35,473 nucleotides of DNA from Caldithrix sp. (GTDB lineage Bacteria; Calditrichota; Calditrichia; Calditrichales; Calditrichaceae), in assembly GCA_014730185.1 (NCBI GenBank), contig WJIP01000125.1, positions 1 through 35,473 on the forward strand, read 5' to 3'. Below are positions 5,796-31,842 of the stretch, piece by piece (the first letter of the stretch is position 1; the number at the start of each line of letters is the position of its first letter). Below the pieces are notes generated by a model. The model did no database searches, was not told the DNA's origin, and saw nothing but the letters and a program-made list of their open reading frames with translations. The position numbers were made by a program, and so were the translations under genes.

Positions 5796-6776
5796 CTACA
5801 AAACTTGCGGCAGGCGTAGATGAAAGGAGATGCGGTGCACGTCGCCCAGTTCGCTCTGGTAAGCCGTAAAGGAATAGTCGAAGGTGATTTTGGGGATGGA
5901 CAACCCGATGCCGGTGTTAAAACGGTTTAAATCGTCCAGTCCGGCGCGCACGGCCAGAGTATTCCGGTAACCGATTTCCAGACCCCAGAAGGTATCCATG
6001 CTCAGCGGCCCCATGCTCATCTGGCTGGCAAATTCCCGGTTTTCAGCCAGAAACTGCACATCCATGGCCGGCCGCACCGTAATCGCCCACTGCGGAATAT
6101 CCACGGCATAGGACAGGCCCAGACGAGCGGACGGGGTGATGAACTCCTTGGTACCGTTGGTCCAGGAAATCATAGTGCTGGTGATATCGCGCAGCATCAG
6201 GCCGCTGTGCAGCCGGTCGGTTATACGGTACTGCACACCGGCATCAAAGCCAATGCCCAAGGCCGATTCCACGTTGTAATCCCGGTAAATGGTTTTCAGG
6301 TTGATCCCGTAACTGAGCCGCTTATTCAGTTGTTTAGCATAACTGAAATAGGCGATGTAATCGCCGGTGTTAAAGGTGCGTATTTTGGAATAATCCAGGC
6401 TGAGCTGGCCGTCGGTGATCACTTTGGCCTGACGGCTGTCCTTAATGCCGTTGACCGTCAGATACACGAGAGAGATGCCGATGTGGCTGTCTTCCCTAAG
6501 GGCATGGGAAGCGGCCAGATAGTTATGCTGGATACTGCTGATGAACTGTTTGCTGTGCATGAATTGCACCTGCAGACCCCGGGCCTGCGTCAATCCGGCG
6601 GGATTCCAATATCCAGCAGTGACATCGTTAACCAGGGCCGTGTTGGCTCCCGCCATGCCCAAAGCCCGACTGCCGGCACCCAAACTGAGAAATTCACCGG
6701 CATACTTTTTAAAGGAACTGGCCTGGGAAAAGGCCACCAGAGCAGCCAGTATCAACAAAGAAAACCTGTATCGCAT
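5796..6776 (-). CDS. PorV/PorQ-family outer-membrane beta-barrel protein
   Basis: About 326 aa. A signal peptide (R-Y-R-F-S-L-L-I-L-A-A-L-V-A-F-S-Q-A) is followed by the hallmark PorV/PorQ opening, which includes G-A-G-S-R-A-L-G-M-A-G-A-N-T-A and then Y-W-N-P-A-G-L. The rest alternates in beta-strand pattern, ending in a strand-rich C-terminus. In Bacteroidota, PorV works with the type IX secretion system; many FCB relatives have uncharacterised barrels of this type. The ORF could start at a TTG (6794) overlapping the upstream stop, but AAAGGCAGG lies 6 nt before the ATG at 6776, and that start also gives a proper signal peptide. It is the last gene of the PASTA-rpe-kinase operon. Confidence 0.8.
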   Translation of the reverse strand: MRYRFSLLILAALVAFSQASSFKKYAGEFLSLGAGSRALGMAGANTALVNDVTAGYWNPAGLTQARGLQVQFMHSKQFISSIQHNYLAASHALREDSHIGISLVYLTVNGIKDSRQAKVITDGQLSLDYSKIRTFNTGDYIAYFSYAKQLNKRLSYGINLKTIYRDYNVESALGIGFDAGVQYRITDRLHSGLMLRDITSTMISWTNGTKEFITPSARLGLSYAVDIPQWAITVRPAMDVQFLAENREFASQMSMGPLSMDTFWGLEIGYRNTLAVRAGLDDLNRFNTGIGLSIPKITFDYSFTAYQSELGDVHRISFHLRLPQVL

Positions 6777-26406: not shown

Positions 26407-27642
26407 ATGGTTGGCCATCAGTTGACACCCTTTAATTACCGATGCACACAATGCGGTCGTCATTTTGAACGTGACGCCGTCACATATTTATGTCCGCACT
26501 GCAGTATCGCTTATCAGGCGGGTCAAACCCTCTGCGGGGTTTTACAGGCTGAATTCGACTATGATTACATCCGCCGTTATTTCAATCCGGCGGCGCCCGA
26601 CTGGCAATTGTTCAGTGCTGTGGAGGCATCCTTTTCACCCTCATTACCTGTGGGCCAGACGCCCTATTTTCAGGCGTACCAATTAGAATCCCTTAGCGGT
26701 TTAAGCAATATTTATCTAAAAAATGACGGATTGAATCCCAGCGGGTCCCTCAAAGACCGGGCTTCTTATTTAGTAGTGGCCGAGGCCAAACGCAAAGATA
26801 TCGATACCGTCGTCACTGCTTCCACCGGCAACGCCGCCAGCGCCCTGGCCGCCGTTTGCGCCTCATGTGGAATGAAAGCGGTTATTTTTGCCCCGGCCTC
26901 CGCCCCCAAAGCTAAACTGTTGCAAATTCTGCTATATGGAGGCCAACTGATTACTGTAGATGGCAGCTATGATGATGCCTTTTCTCTATCACTGGCCTAC
27001 AGCCAGCGTAACAATGTTCTCAACCGTAATACGGCCTACCATCCCCTGACCATCGAAGGTAAAAAATCAGCGGCATTGGAGATATTGACCCAGAACGGCA
27101 TGCACCCGCCGCAGGCTGTGATCGTGCCTGTGGGCGACGGCGTGATCATCAGCGGCATGTACAAAGGTTTTTACGATTTAATGGATAGCGGCATAACCGA
27201 TCGTCTGCCGCGATTGATTGGTGTACAGGCGGAAAAATCGGCGGCCATCCATCGCTATTTACAAACAGGCTGTTTTTCGGCCCTAAAAACGGCGCAAACC
27301 ATAGCCGACTCCATATCTGTTGCCGTTCCCAGTAACGCATATATGGCCCGGCAAGCGATTCTGCAAAGCGGCGGTTTTACCCTGACGGTCAGCGATGAGG
27401 ACATTATGCAGGCCCAGCAATTGTTGGCGGCCAACAGCGGTATTTTCGCCGAACCGGCGGCAGCCGCGACGCTGGCCGGCCTGTTAAAAGACGATTGCCG
27501 TAACGAACTGAATTCCAAGGGATCTATCGTTTTGCTGATTACCGGTCACGGCTTAAAAGACATCGCCACCCCTCTTGAACAGATGCGAATACCTGCCGCG
27601 CAAAAGCCGCAAGCCATTCTCGACAATATGGAGGCGATATGA
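26407..27642 (+). CDS. Threonine synthase-like PLP enzyme (fold type II)
   Basis: 411 aa. The N-terminal zinc-ribbon is C13-x-x-C16 and C30-x-x-C33, as in many bacterial threonine synthases. The PLP lysine is Lys116 in N-P-S-G-S-L-K-D-R-A. The S-T-G-N-A-A-S-A-L loop follows, and V-P-V-G-D-G binds the cofactor phosphate. The position inside a degradation operon, with its start close after ygeY and a 4-nt overlap with hyuA, argues against a biosynthetic role. A beta-elimination on a diaminopropionate-, serine- or phosphoserine-like product is more likely, which would fill the place of diaminopropionate ammonia-lyase YgeX in the E. coli cluster. That function is inferred from context only. Confidence 0.8.
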   Translation: MVGHQLTPFNYRCTQCGRHFERDAVTYLCPHCSIAYQAGQTLCGVLQAEFDYDYIRRYFNPAAPDWQLFSAVEASFSPSLPVGQTPYFQAYQLESLSGLSNIYLKNDGLNPSGSLKDRASYLVVAEAKRKDIDTVVTASTGNAASALAAVCASCGMKAVIFAPASAPKAKLLQILLYGGQLITVDGSYDDAFSLSLAYSQRNNVLNRNTAYHPLTIEGKKSAALEILTQNGMHPPQAVIVPVGDGVIISGMYKGFYDLMDSGITDRLPRLIGVQAEKSAAIHRYLQTGCFSALKTAQTIADSISVAVPSNAYMARQAILQSGGFTLTVSDEDIMQAQQLLAANSGIFAEPAAAATLAGLLKDDCRNELNSKGSIVLLITGHGLKDIATPLEQMRIPAAQKPQAILDNMEAI

Positions 27643-29030
27643 GTCAAAAGGTGATCGTCCGGAACGGCAAACTTTGCCATCCCCACGGCATTCGGCGGGA
27701 AGATATATTGATGCAAAACGGGCGTATTGCCCGTATCGGCAAAATTTCCGAAAACGAATACCAATCCGCTGAGGTAATCGATGCAATGGACCATTATGTG
27801 CTGCCGGGCTTGATTGATATGCACACTCATGTGGATGATGCCATTAACGGCGTTGCCCTGGCCGATACCTATGACAGCGCCTCCCGTCTGGCCATACAAA
27901 ACGGTATCACCACCCTGTTTACGTTTATCACCCAAGGTCCTGCGGAAAGCTTCGATATGGCCATTGACCGGGCCGTTCGAAAAGCCAAAGGAAACAGTTA
28001 TACCGATGTGGGATGGCATCTCACTCCACTGGATTGGTACCCCCCGGCTATGGAGCGCATCCAAACCCGTATTCAAGAGGGATTCAAAACCTTCAAATTT
28101 TACACCACTTACAAAGAGGCCGGTCTTTATCTGGATTACGAACAAATCGCAGCCATCGTCAACCGATTAACAAAATACAATGTGCGTTTTCTGGTGCATT
28201 GCGAAGATGAACAAACGCTGGAAACCTACCGGCAAAAATCGTGGGATCTAAGCAAACCCGAAAGTCATGCAGATATGCGTCCACCCGGAGCCGAATACGA
28301 GGCTATCCGCCGTATTATTGAAATCGCCAAACGCAGTGGAGCTAAATTCCACATCGTTCATGTATCCACGACAGAAGGTCTGGAATTGATCGCAAACGAA
28401 GGCCGTCGCCATGGGATCACCTGCGAAACCGCACCGCATTATTTTTTGCTCAATCGTCGACAATTAGCCGCCGAAAACGGTCACCGCTATTTGTGTACGC
28501 CGCCGCTGCGCCAACCGGACACTCAACGCGGTATGAAAACTTATGCCCAAGAGGCCCGCTTCGATTGCTTTGCCACCGATCATTGCGCTTTCAACCGTAA
28601 AGAAAAAGACCGGCACAAAAAGAATCTGCCATCGATCCCTAAAGGCATTGCCGGATTGGGTTCGCTGGCGCCGGCCGTATTCGAATTATTCCATCAAGAA
28701 GGTGATGCCGGTATGATCAAACTTTTAAAAACTCTATCCGAAAACCCGGCCAGGATAACGGGCTTATATCCGCAAAAAGGGATTTTGCAGGAGGGATCGG
28801 ACGCCGACGTGGTCATCTTAAAGAAAGGTAATCAAAGCCGGCCGTTTTGTTCAAGTCTGACCAACAACTACGAACCATATCCCGATTTTGAAACCCGTTT
28901 GCATATTGCTTATGTTATCAGGAATGGTGAAATTAAAGTAAAAAATAACAGCATCATAAATAACGTCATGAATGGCAAATTATTAAATCACAATAATCAA
29001 ACAAATCAATATGAATCAAAACATAAGTAA
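27639..29030 (+). CDS. hyuA: Dihydropyrimidinase / hydantoinase family hydrolase
   Basis: The protein has 463 aa. It is a cyclic amidohydrolase with a binuclear metal centre, all ligands visible: H62-x-H64 (D-M-H-T-H), carbamylated Lys153 in F-K-T-F-K-F, H187 in V-H-C-E-D, H241 in I-V-H-V-S-T, and D314 in A-T-D-H-C-A. It opens cyclic ureides such as dihydropyrimidines and hydantoins, giving N-carbamoyl amino acids. It is the equivalent of E. coli HyuA/YgeZ in the yge region and would act after a reductase. The last 18 residues (G-K-L-L-N-H-N-N-Q and onward) are encoded by a sequence repeated 518 bp downstream, so the C-terminus may have been altered by insertion of the next gene, which overlaps it by 20 nt. 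Confidence 0.93.
   Translation: MSQKVIVRNGKLCHPHGIRREDILMQNGRIARIGKISENEYQSAEVIDAMDHYVLPGLIDMHTHVDDAINGVALADTYDSASRLAIQNGITTLFTFITQGPAESFDMAIDRAVRKAKGNSYTDVGWHLTPLDWYPPAMERIQTRIQEGFKTFKFYTTYKEAGLYLDYEQIAAIVNRLTKYNVRFLVHCEDEQTLETYRQKSWDLSKPESHADMRPPGAEYEAIRRIIEIAKRSGAKFHIVHVSTTEGLELIANEGRRHGITCETAPHYFLLNRRQLAAENGHRYLCTPPLRQPDTQRGMKTYAQEARFDCFATDHCAFNRKEKDRHKKNLPSIPKGIAGLGSLAPAVFELFHQEGDAGMIKLLKTLSENPARITGLYPQKGILQEGSDADVVILKKGNQSRPFCSSLTNNYEPYPDFETRLHIAYVIRNGEIKVKNNSIINNVMNGKLLNHNNQTNQYESKHK
28974..29001 (+). repeat. 28-bp direct repeat, left copy
   Basis: This copy matches 29492-29519 at 25 of 28 positions, with the last 16 identical. It codes for G-K-L-L-N-H-N-N-Q at the end of the hydantoinase. 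The two copies bracket the four-helix-bundle gene. Confidence 0.75.
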
Positions 29031-29379
29031 CAAACCGGTATATGGCCTGGAAGAAAGAACATTCTTATTTGCTAAGAATGTGAGAATTTTTGTCAAAACG
29101 TTAGCGAATACTTTAGCTAATATTGATGACGGAAAACAAGTTATTAGATCTTCAGGTTCTATAGGCGCCAACTATCGGGAAGCAAATGAGGCTTTAAGCA
29201 AAAAAGATTTTGTTTTGCGAATAAAAATAAGTCATAAGGAAGTAAAAGAGAGTGAATATTGGCTTCGTCTCATTGCTGAAACAAATGAGTTAAAAAATAG
29301 TCAGGAAGCCCAACGGTTGATTGGGGAAACCATTGAATTAAAGAAAATATTTTCCTCCATCTTAGAAAAATCAAAATAA
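29011..29379 (+). CDS. Four-helix-bundle protein (23S rRNA intervening-sequence / S23 type)
   Basis: 122 aa. All-helical, with the family signature R-S-S-G-S-I-G-A-N-Y-R-E-A-N-E-A followed by K-D-F-x-x-R-I-K-I and K-E-x-K-E-S-x-Y-W-L. Related proteins are encoded in 23S rRNA intervening sequences of Leptospira and Coxiella, and a related fold serves as Avd in diversity-generating retroelements. Here no rRNA or reverse transcriptase is nearby. The gene is much more AT-rich than its neighbours, overlaps the end of hyuA by 20 nt, and lies between 28-bp direct repeats, so it reads as a small inserted cassette in the catabolic operon. It probably has no metabolic role there; the function of stand-alone members is unknown. 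Confidence 0.88.
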   Translation: MNQNISNKPVYGLEERTFLFAKNVRIFVKTLANTLANIDDGKQVIRSSGSIGANYREANEALSKKDFVLRIKISHKEVKESEYWLRLIAETNELKNSQEAQRLIGETIELKKIFSSILEKSK

Positions 29380-29491
29380 ACAGGTTTTGAATATTGATAT
29401 TTTTATATTGGAATTTATTTGTTATTTATAATTTGTAATTTGAGATTTAAATGATGAACGTCAATACAATATTGCATGTAGTACGAATTAA

Positions 29492-29519
29492 GGTAAATCA
29501 TTGAATCACAATAATCAAA
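29492..29519 (+). repeat. 28-bp direct repeat, right copy
   Basis: This is the right-hand copy of the repeat at 28974-29001. In the matching frame it reads G-K-S-L-N-H-N-N-Q-K-T-N-F-K and then a stop at 29534-29536. It could therefore be the displaced original 3' end of the hydantoinase gene. A TAA (29489-29491) directly precedes it. Confidence 0.75.
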
Positions 29520-29589
29520 AAACAAATTTCAAATAAATGGCAATAATGAGATTTTATAATAATCCAATGGCCATGAAAGGCAGACTGTT

Positions 29590-31842
29590 ATGCCGGATAT
29601 AAAACAAAAAGCCTGGCGCAATGATGCTTTTGCCAAGGTCACCGGTAAGGCCAAATTTGCCGATGATTTAAAGTTCAATGGCATGCTGCATGCGGTACCG
29701 GTTTATACGGATTATGTGCACGCCCGTATCGAAGGCATCGATGTTGAACAAGCCCGCAATATGGAGGGCGTGGTGGCTGTGCTGACCGCCGCCGATGTAC
29801 CCGGGCAAATTCGCTGGGGGCAAATTCAGCAGGATTACCACATGTTGTGTGAGGATAAAATCCGATACAACGGCGATGTGATAGCGTTGATCGTAGCCGA
29901 AAGTAGGGAGCAGGCTCTCGCCGCCATGCCCCATGTTACCATCAAGGCTCGCCCGTTACCGAAAGTTCTGGACGCCGAACAAGCCATGCAGCCGGATGCG
30001 CCGCTGGTACATGACGATAAAGGTACCAATCTGGTGGTACATCACAAGGTTCGCCGCGGCGATCCCGCTGAAATCGACAAAAAGCATGATATAACCGTCG
30101 AGCATCGCTTTGAAACCCAGTTTGTGGAGCACGCCTATATCGAGCCGGAATCGGCTGTCTGCGTCCCCCGCGGCGACGGCGTGATGGAGGTGTACGGCTC
30201 CATGCAGCATCCATTCAGCACCCGACGCTTTGTGGCCGCCATGATGGGCGTTTCCCTGAATGAAGTGGAAGTGATATCCATCCCCATGGGCGGCGGCTTC
30301 GGCGGCAAGGACGATACCAGCGCTATCGTGTGCGCCCGGGCCGCTTTAGCTGCCAGCATAACCGGGTGTCCGGTTAAAATGACGTACGACCGGGAATGGT
30401 CCATGCGCGAAAGTTATAAACGCCACCCTTATCGGGTTGATTATAAAATGAATGTCGCTAAAGACGGGACGATCCGGGCTGTAAAAACGCGTATCGTTGC
30501 CGACGCCGGCGCATATTGCTCGGTTACGCCCTGGGTAACCTGGCGTTCAACCGTGCAGTGCTGCGGCCCCTACAGCGTCCCAAATGTGCATTGCGATGTC
30601 TACGGCGTTCACACGAATAACGTATTCACCGGCGCCATGCGCGGTTTCGGATCGCCGCAAATGAATTTTGTCATCGAACAGATGGTGGAAGAGGCCGCCG
30701 AACAGTGCGGTATGGACGGCGTCGCCTTTCGTCGGAAAAATATGCTGCGCCAGGGCGAGGAGACCATCACCGGTCAAAAACTGGACGGACACACCGTCAG
30801 TCTGGAACAGGTCATGGACGAAGTGATTACGGCAATCGATTATCATAAAAAGCTGAAACCGTGCAGCCGGGGTAAAGCTAACGGCGATAAGCTTTACGGG
30901 ATCGGGCTGGCGGTCAGCTATCGCGGTATGAGCCTGGGCGCCGAAGGCAAGGATTTTTGCGCCGCTATTATCAATGTGCAATTCGACGGGTCAATTTTAT
31001 TAGAGAGCGGCATCCATGAGAACGGTCAGGGTTCGGAGTCGGCGTTTATCCTTTTATTAGCAAGAGAAATGGGGGTAAATCACGATCGCATTCGCTACCG
31101 GCGGTCATCCACATCGGTCATACCGGACAGCGGTACAACGGTGGCCTCCCGCGGTACGCTGATGGGCGGCGGCGCTGTGGTCAACGCCGCCCGCAAACTT
31201 AAATCGATGATGGCCGAAACCGTGGCTGCCCAACTGGGTTGCGATGCCCAGCACATTGTCTTCGACGGCGAACACCTGCGGGCAAAGGACAGCGGCAAAT
31301 CCATATCCTTTGATGAAACCATCCGGGAAATGTATCAAAAACAAAATTTTCCGCACGCCTTCGGCGTGTTTAAATCGCCTAAAGTGAGCTGGAATGAAGA
31401 GACCGGTCAGGGAAAAGCCTATTTCACCTGGGTATACGGCTGCCAGGCGGTTGAACTGCAGGTCGATGCCCGCAACGGGCGGGTCAAACTGCTCAATGCC
31501 GTGGCCGCTCATGACGTGGGCCGGGCTGTTAATCCACCCATGGTGCTGGGACAGTATTACGGCGGCATGGCCATGGGTATGGGCTACGGTCTGAAAGAGG
31601 CTGTGCAAATAAACGACGGCAAAATCAGCAACGATAATTTCAACCATTACCACATTGCCAGAGCCACGGACATGCCGGATATGAAAGCGATCATCATCGA
31701 AAACGCCGATCCGCTATCGCCGTCGCGGGCCAAAGGCATCGGCGAACCGACCAATGAAATTATGGCGCCGGCCATCGCCAATGCGGTTTATAACGCTACC
31801 GGTGTCCGTTATTACACATCACCCATAACCATAGAGATTTGA
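29590..31842 (+). CDS. Second molybdenum hydroxylase, molybdopterin-binding subunit (XdhD-like)
   Basis: The protein has 750 aa. The xanthine dehydrogenase family fold is clear: Q206 in S-M-Q-H-P, G-G-G-F-G-G-K-D (234-241), A-M-R351-G-F-G-S-P-Q, E-N-G-Q-G in place of E-M-G-Q-G, the H-D-V-G-R-A-V-N-P-P-M-V-L-G-Q motif, and catalytic E719 in G-E-P-T. The residue equal to bovine Glu802 is Asp241, not Glu, and the proline pair after the catalytic Glu is P-T, so the pocket differs from XdhB. Cluster context and similarity point to the XdhD/selenium-dependent hydroxylase group. Its substrate may be another purine or an intermediate. It pairs with the next gene (1-nt gap); no FAD subunit adjoins it. 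Confidence 0.88.
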   Translation: MPDIKQKAWRNDAFAKVTGKAKFADDLKFNGMLHAVPVYTDYVHARIEGIDVEQARNMEGVVAVLTAADVPGQIRWGQIQQDYHMLCEDKIRYNGDVIALIVAESREQALAAMPHVTIKARPLPKVLDAEQAMQPDAPLVHDDKGTNLVVHHKVRRGDPAEIDKKHDITVEHRFETQFVEHAYIEPESAVCVPRGDGVMEVYGSMQHPFSTRRFVAAMMGVSLNEVEVISIPMGGGFGGKDDTSAIVCARAALAASITGCPVKMTYDREWSMRESYKRHPYRVDYKMNVAKDGTIRAVKTRIVADAGAYCSVTPWVTWRSTVQCCGPYSVPNVHCDVYGVHTNNVFTGAMRGFGSPQMNFVIEQMVEEAAEQCGMDGVAFRRKNMLRQGEETITGQKLDGHTVSLEQVMDEVITAIDYHKKLKPCSRGKANGDKLYGIGLAVSYRGMSLGAEGKDFCAAIINVQFDGSILLESGIHENGQGSESAFILLLAREMGVNHDRIRYRRSSTSVIPDSGTTVASRGTLMGGGAVVNAARKLKSMMAETVAAQLGCDAQHIVFDGEHLRAKDSGKSISFDETIREMYQKQNFPHAFGVFKSPKVSWNEETGQGKAYFTWVYGCQAVELQVDARNGRVKLLNAVAAHDVGRAVNPPMVLGQYYGGMAMGMGYGLKEAVQINDGKISNDNFNHYHIARATDMPDMKAIIIENADPLSPSRAKGIGEPTNEIMAPAIANAVYNATGVRYYTSPITIEI

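Follow-up and report, generated by a model that had tools for sequence, protein, structure and literature searches.

A four-helix-bundle gene at the 3' end of a Caldithrix hydantoinase gene as a probable mobile cassette related to the 23S rRNA IVSs

The locus analysed here raises the question of how a small gene came to lie across the end of a hyuA-like hydantoinase gene, between two copies of a direct repeat, and of where that repeat comes from. The window, i.e. the whole analysed stretch of 35,473 nucleotides of Caldithrix sp. DNA, was searched for repeats, and the two copies were found to be identical at 27 of 31 bases (25 of 28 over the shorter stretch quoted in an initial annotation). For the best ungapped 31-nt direct repeat, none of 300 dinucleotide shuffles of positions 28900–29600 reached 27, the maximum being 25. 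Translated in the hydantoinase frame, each copy gives G-K-x-L-N-H-N-N-Q, and the right one goes on with K-T-N-F-K and a stop. The small gene between them starts at an ATG upstream of the hyuA stop and overlaps hyuA by 20 bases. The repeat, its in-frame reading and the overlap had been described in the initial annotation and were borne out. That annotation had further proposed that a cassette was inserted with duplication of the last codons of the host gene, leaving the hydantoinase with a new tail. The features of the locus are collected in Table 1.

The product of the small gene matched PF05635 (E=1.3e-13; 51.5 bits against a cut-off of 33.8) and TIGR02436 (E=5e-20; 71.7 bits against a cut-off of 24), and is thus a member of the 23S_rRNA_IVP/four helix bundle family, above the curated cut-offs. 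To our knowledge, IVP genes have no known function. Rfam returned no rRNA match at the window locus, which is situated between hyuA and an xdh-type gene and not inside an rRNA gene. Apart from the IVP gene, the cassette contains no ORF of appreciable size and no transposase of its own.

Table 1. Features at the end of hyuA, in window coordinates
Feature	Position	Strand	Basis
hyuA-like gene of the dihydropyrimidinase/hydantoinase family	27639–29030	+	TIGR02033 (E=1e-80), match ending at residue 449; C-terminal alignment
Putative cassette left arm, with left repeat copy (28974–29004) and hyuA 3' end	28974–29010	+	27/31 match to 29492–29522; alignment of element ends; evidence from the left copy by itself weak
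IVP/four-helix-bundle gene, 122 aa	29011–29379	+	PF05635, TIGR02436; solved relative 2rld; clade of six, support 100/99
Putative cassette right arm	29382–29450	+	Best arm matches at L262, L254, L271 and L255, in the protein clade of the window gene; matches to gene-less hairpins of its own genome
Second left-arm copy (29492–29522 and continuation), pairing with 29406–29450; read as an adjoining gene-less unit	29492–29545	+	Inverted repeat; shuffle tests against arms
Downstream operon gene of the xanthine dehydrogenase molybdenum subunit type	29590–31842	+	Profile matches

The right flank (29406–29545) was found to be an imperfect palindrome, missed in the initial annotation, whose 45-nt arms (29406–29450 and 29501–29545) are 71% complementary; the second arm contains most of the right repeat copy. 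The match of the window left arm to the reversed right arm was weak, as its score was reached by 33 of 1000 shuffles. RNA folding of the right flank gave no better result than shuffles, and folding of the whole insert beat 20 shuffles for a stretch that includes coding sequence.

Arms were considered across the family. PF05635 was detected by profile search in 36 of 40 genomes of the phylum, most of them drafts, with up to 14 copies per genome. Flanks were extracted for 120 IVP loci, mostly the better-scoring ones, and the left arm was scored against the reversed right arm with a threshold of 28. Most IVP genes are enclosed by a left arm consisting of repeated short words and a right arm with its reverse complement, and the word varies by locus (AGTACATAGTA, GGGGCAGGTGGCAG, GGCAGTTGGCAG, CGTTATTCGTTA). 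The median score was 33 for cognate pairs versus 16 for non-cognate pairs. A score of at least 28 was obtained for 82 of 116 IVP loci of the phylum (71%) versus 4 of 495 control ORFs (0.8%), which were drawn from the window and from hydantoinase loci in relatives and in Bacteroidota, included mechanical ORFs and were matched only roughly in base composition; the rough matching is covered by the non-cognate and shuffle controls. Since the arms are low in complexity, single-locus tests are weak; 53 of 81 loci beat all 200 shuffles, with the window among the 81 and outside the 53. The same threshold was attained by 21 of 29 IVP loci in Bacteroidota, versus 2.6% of non-cognate pairs, and 6 of 8 plasmid loci from Cyanobacteriota, Spirochaetota, Bacteroidota and Chloroflexota beat all shuffles. 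In about 29% of loci no clear arms are seen, and the second IVP gene of the window's genome is one of these.

The window protein belongs to a clade of six members, spread over three host families, with identities at 54–73 of 104 positions. When its right arm was compared with those of 133 loci, the top four matches all fell within this clade (L262, 67; L254, 61; L271, 54; L255, 51), against medians near 19; the fifth partner, L279, scored 30. The neighbours of clade members, named by reading translated ends, are uvrB and purD in G016, purN and purF in G006, and genes resembling etfA and an acyl-CoA dehydrogenase in G007. The link between arm and protein was evaluated over pairs from 147 loci, excluding pairs from the same genome and pairs with similar outer flanks. 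Arms were shared (score of at least 34) by 51% of pairs with a protein similarity of at least 0.6 versus 0.3–1% at low similarity, and none of 2000 permutations equalled the mean arm score for similarities of at least 0.5. Below 0.5 the link vanishes, which indicates that the arms change fast. The arms are thereby shown to accompany this protein subclade into unrelated operons, and the arm words evolve quickly yet remain complementary within one locus. The initial annotation had named, as an outcome adverse to its own proposal, that the repeat be general for such genes and unrelated to hyuA; this largely turned out to be so, the most similar arms being found at the closest protein relatives, which belong to other genera and lie in other operons.

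These comparisons bear on whether the repeats are accidental products of the AT-rich, low-complexity sequence in which the small gene is embedded. The region is indeed AT-rich and of low complexity, and several single-locus tests are weak; against this stand the shuffles of the 31-nt repeat, the concentration of arm similarity in the window's protein clade and the excess of cognate arms over control ORFs. Chance is contradicted for the IVP family and extremely improbable as an account of the locus, where only the left copy is arguable.

The right flank of the window also matched dispersed intergenic hairpins in its own genome (4.1 Mb) that carry no IVP gene and span GGGAAAAT to ATTTTCCC. A search of this genome (G000) with the hairpin consensus yielded six copies, and the next ranks were two pieces of the window right flank (E values of 0.002 and 0.007). 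Among all IVP loci, those most like the gene-less hairpins belong mainly to the window clade (ranks 1–4, 6 and 7). Matches were also found in three genomes that contain clade members, G031 (17), G007 and G006. G005, without a clade member, gave one match; G004 and G016, both with clade members, gave none, nor did G013 and G014. Several gene-less copies with common ends thus occur within one genome, as in MITE-like dispersed palindromes (six in G000; 17 matches in G031). A further close copy of the IVP gene was not found in the genome. Its second, divergent PF05635 gene (contig C68, about 5872–6177) has no recognisable arms and is followed by an ATP-binding gene of the ABC-transporter type.

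Direct repeats scoring above 30 were present at 19 of 119 IVP loci, including the window. On inspection, the copies were palindromic at several loci (e.g. L236, L270, L273 and L252), and at L279 a tandem series of gene-less units lies behind the gene. Because copies are often palindromic or tandem gene-less units, direct repeats around IVP genes are best read as duplicated hairpin units. On a Candidatus Chlorohelix plasmid (L376), a direct repeat of ~107 bp with almost no differences between its copies encloses the IVP gene, and complementary words occur inside either copy. In G029, two loci (L239 and L240) encode an identical protein and share the start of the downstream gene, with different sequence upstream of the arm; the pair represents a duplication of recent date in which the arm repeats are changing.

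In two relatives, IVP-encoding IVSs were located inside 23S rRNA (L230 and L233; Rfam LSU rRNA match). Their arms are built from words of the CAAGG type, as in stand-alone cassettes, with inverted scores of 40 and 36, which directly links the rRNA and stand-alone forms.

Inverted repeats flanking the gene at most loci could also belong to an invertible switch, the function of the arms being to recombine and flip the IVP gene. Some genes do run against their operon, e.g. between cas2 and cas1, and these amount to 12 of 87 loci with co-directional neighbours, as judged from long open frames rather than annotated genes. The other 75 are co-oriented, a strong bias towards the operon direction. In addition, imperfect arms of drifting short words would make poor substrates for a site-specific invertase, and the cassette contains no invertase, so that a switch appears very unlikely.

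The end of hyuA itself was inspected by C-terminal alignment. Hydantoinase relatives terminate shortly after the motif G-[KRQ]-[FLI]-[VI], and the window protein extends 14 residues past it. These residues (450–463; 28986–29030) correspond to the final 14 codons of hyuA, which together with the stop are placed inside the cassette left arm. As judged from this alignment, insertion of a cassette at the hyuA 3' end leaving the hydantoinase with a new protein tail is supported, so this part of the initial proposal stood; the reading of the repeat as duplicated host codons did not.

According to the latter reading, the cassette would have duplicated about 28 bp of the host in the manner of a target-site duplication, and both repeats would be hyuA codons. 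Both copies do read G-K-x-L in frame, two of the first three differences are silent, and the G-K-L-L encoded by the first 12 bases of the left copy (28974–28985) fits the conserved hydantoinase C-terminus and is compatible with a native end, which leaves some weight on host-codon duplication. Against it, an alignment of both window copies, the L271 left arm and five gene-less arms showed that all of them begin with GGNAAA and have other blocks in common. The right copy, taken together with the sequence that continues it, resembled element arms, as only 15 of 2000 shuffles did as well against a gene-less hairpin arm and 14 of 2000 against the L271 arm. The left copy by itself matched hairpin or element arms no better than shuffles did, and was assigned to the element on the basis of its match to the right copy and the comparison among loci. 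Since the same bases begin other element copies, coincidence or selection for a fitting tail is the more likely reason for the fit of G-K-L-L. The duplicated palindromes that make up direct repeats around other IVP genes likewise speak against duplicated host codons.

An orthologous empty hyuA site was not found, the closest homologues being at most 35% identical in relatives and at most 27% in a collection of one genome per species; sister insertion sites were therefore used instead. The genus of G016 also includes G019, whose uvrB is 90% identical; there a short spacer separates uvrB from purD, and both IVP gene and arms are lacking, whereas the distance between the two genes exceeds 500 bp in G016. 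Similarly, purN and purF are separated by short spacers in G004, G014, G001, G007, G008 and G010 and by a cassette in G006. Gene and arms were thus shown to be inserted as a unit, and no host duplication was present at the occupied sites L254 and L262. Protein ends are altered there: purN ends in ...VFK versus ...VFSGEFNRQNQE in G004, and uvrB in ...RLKS versus ...RLSIDN in G019, which recalls the new tail of hyuA. With host duplication missing at the sister sites, clade arms present in other operons and the GGNAAA start common to gene-less hairpins and L271, duplication of hyuA codons is disfavoured and we consider it unlikely. On sequence comparison, the most plausible reading of both repeat copies is that they are arms belonging to the cassette itself.

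The purN–purF junction also carries gene-less hairpins in G005 and G013 (L329 and L330), and the word of the former recurs around the IVP gene L246 of the same genome; these hairpins suggest repeated insertion at the junction that holds the G006 cassette. The insert does not fit a classical insertion sequence or transposon, as there is no own transposase and no flanking host duplication at the sister sites L254 and L262.

In our assessment, the window insert is probably a stand-alone relative of the 23S rRNA IVSs, i.e. a short mobile (or once mobile) cassette composed of left arm, IVP gene and right arm. It would have entered a purine/hydantoin-type operon at the junction of hyuA with the following gene, and 29492–29522 would represent the left arm of a gene-less hairpin next to it, like the tandem units at C13 and L279. 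The arms may pair in the transcript and hold the ORF in the loop, and the stem may be cut by RNase III by analogy with rRNA IVSs, whereby the operon would tolerate the insert. The four-helix protein could recognise its cognate arms, copies would spread through an enzyme absent from the cassette, and the gene-less hairpins would be derivatives.

More tentatively, and with somewhat less than even confidence in the proposal as a whole, stand-alone IVP genes may constitute a distinct and widespread class of bacterial mobile elements. The protein would recognise cognate hairpin arms whose words are rewritten fast but stay complementary, gene-less hairpins would be passengers, rRNA IVSs would be one landing site of many, and IVP genes in cas operons would be hitch-hikers. 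The layout of a gene between inverted arms, found around most IVP genes examined and in several phyla, suggests how orphan IVP genes spread. Together, arm-bounded cassettes, subclade-linked arms and clean empty sites reduce the occurrence of IVP genes in settings as different as rRNA, operons and cas loci to a question of arm recognition and movement that can be tested. The window locus further illustrates that a cassette of this kind can give the gene upstream of it a different ending.

Within open PubMed Central, the literature covered (subscription papers and preprints being outside its scope), no description of arms around stand-alone IVP genes was found. The nearest known system is that of the 23S rRNA IVSs encoding S23p/IVP in Leptospira and Coxiella, in which the ORF is bounded by complementary, stem-forming termini (a 28-bp stem in Coxiella), and strains differ in the short tandem repeats that precede the ORF (PMC4990558). 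The window cassette shares the protein family with them; complementary termini around the ORF are clear at most IVP loci and weak at the window itself. It lies between protein genes of an operon and not in rRNA, and the arm words differ by locus. Insertions in rRNA are also known in CPR bacteria (PMC11270868). Avd, the accessory protein of diversity-generating retroelements, is homologous to the IVP four-helix-bundle family (PMC10053308); neither a reverse transcriptase nor a pair of template and variable repeats was noticed next to the window gene.

IVP genes inside cas operons have been reported and, in the sections of the reports covered here, were treated as CRISPR-associated (PMC3936711, PMC10910872). 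They belong to the same family and are likewise placed between operon genes, whereas arms go unmentioned in those sections. In our sample, plasmids of Anabaena, Nostoc and Pseudanabaena (L372, L373 and L369) carry IVP genes flanked by arms or direct repeats; these genes lie between cas2 and cas1 (on the opposite strand) or between csx2 and cas1. The reported CRISPR association may reflect hitch-hiking cassettes, and an operon or CRISPR neighbourhood of an IVP-family gene should not be taken as evidence of function. Finally, REP/REPIN and MITE-type repeats resemble the units described here in being short, palindromic and intergenic, in occurring in several copies and in having no transposase gene of their own. 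They differ in that here an IVP gene lies between the arms of related units, and neither a Y1 (RAYT) transposase nor an IS parent has been linked to these units.
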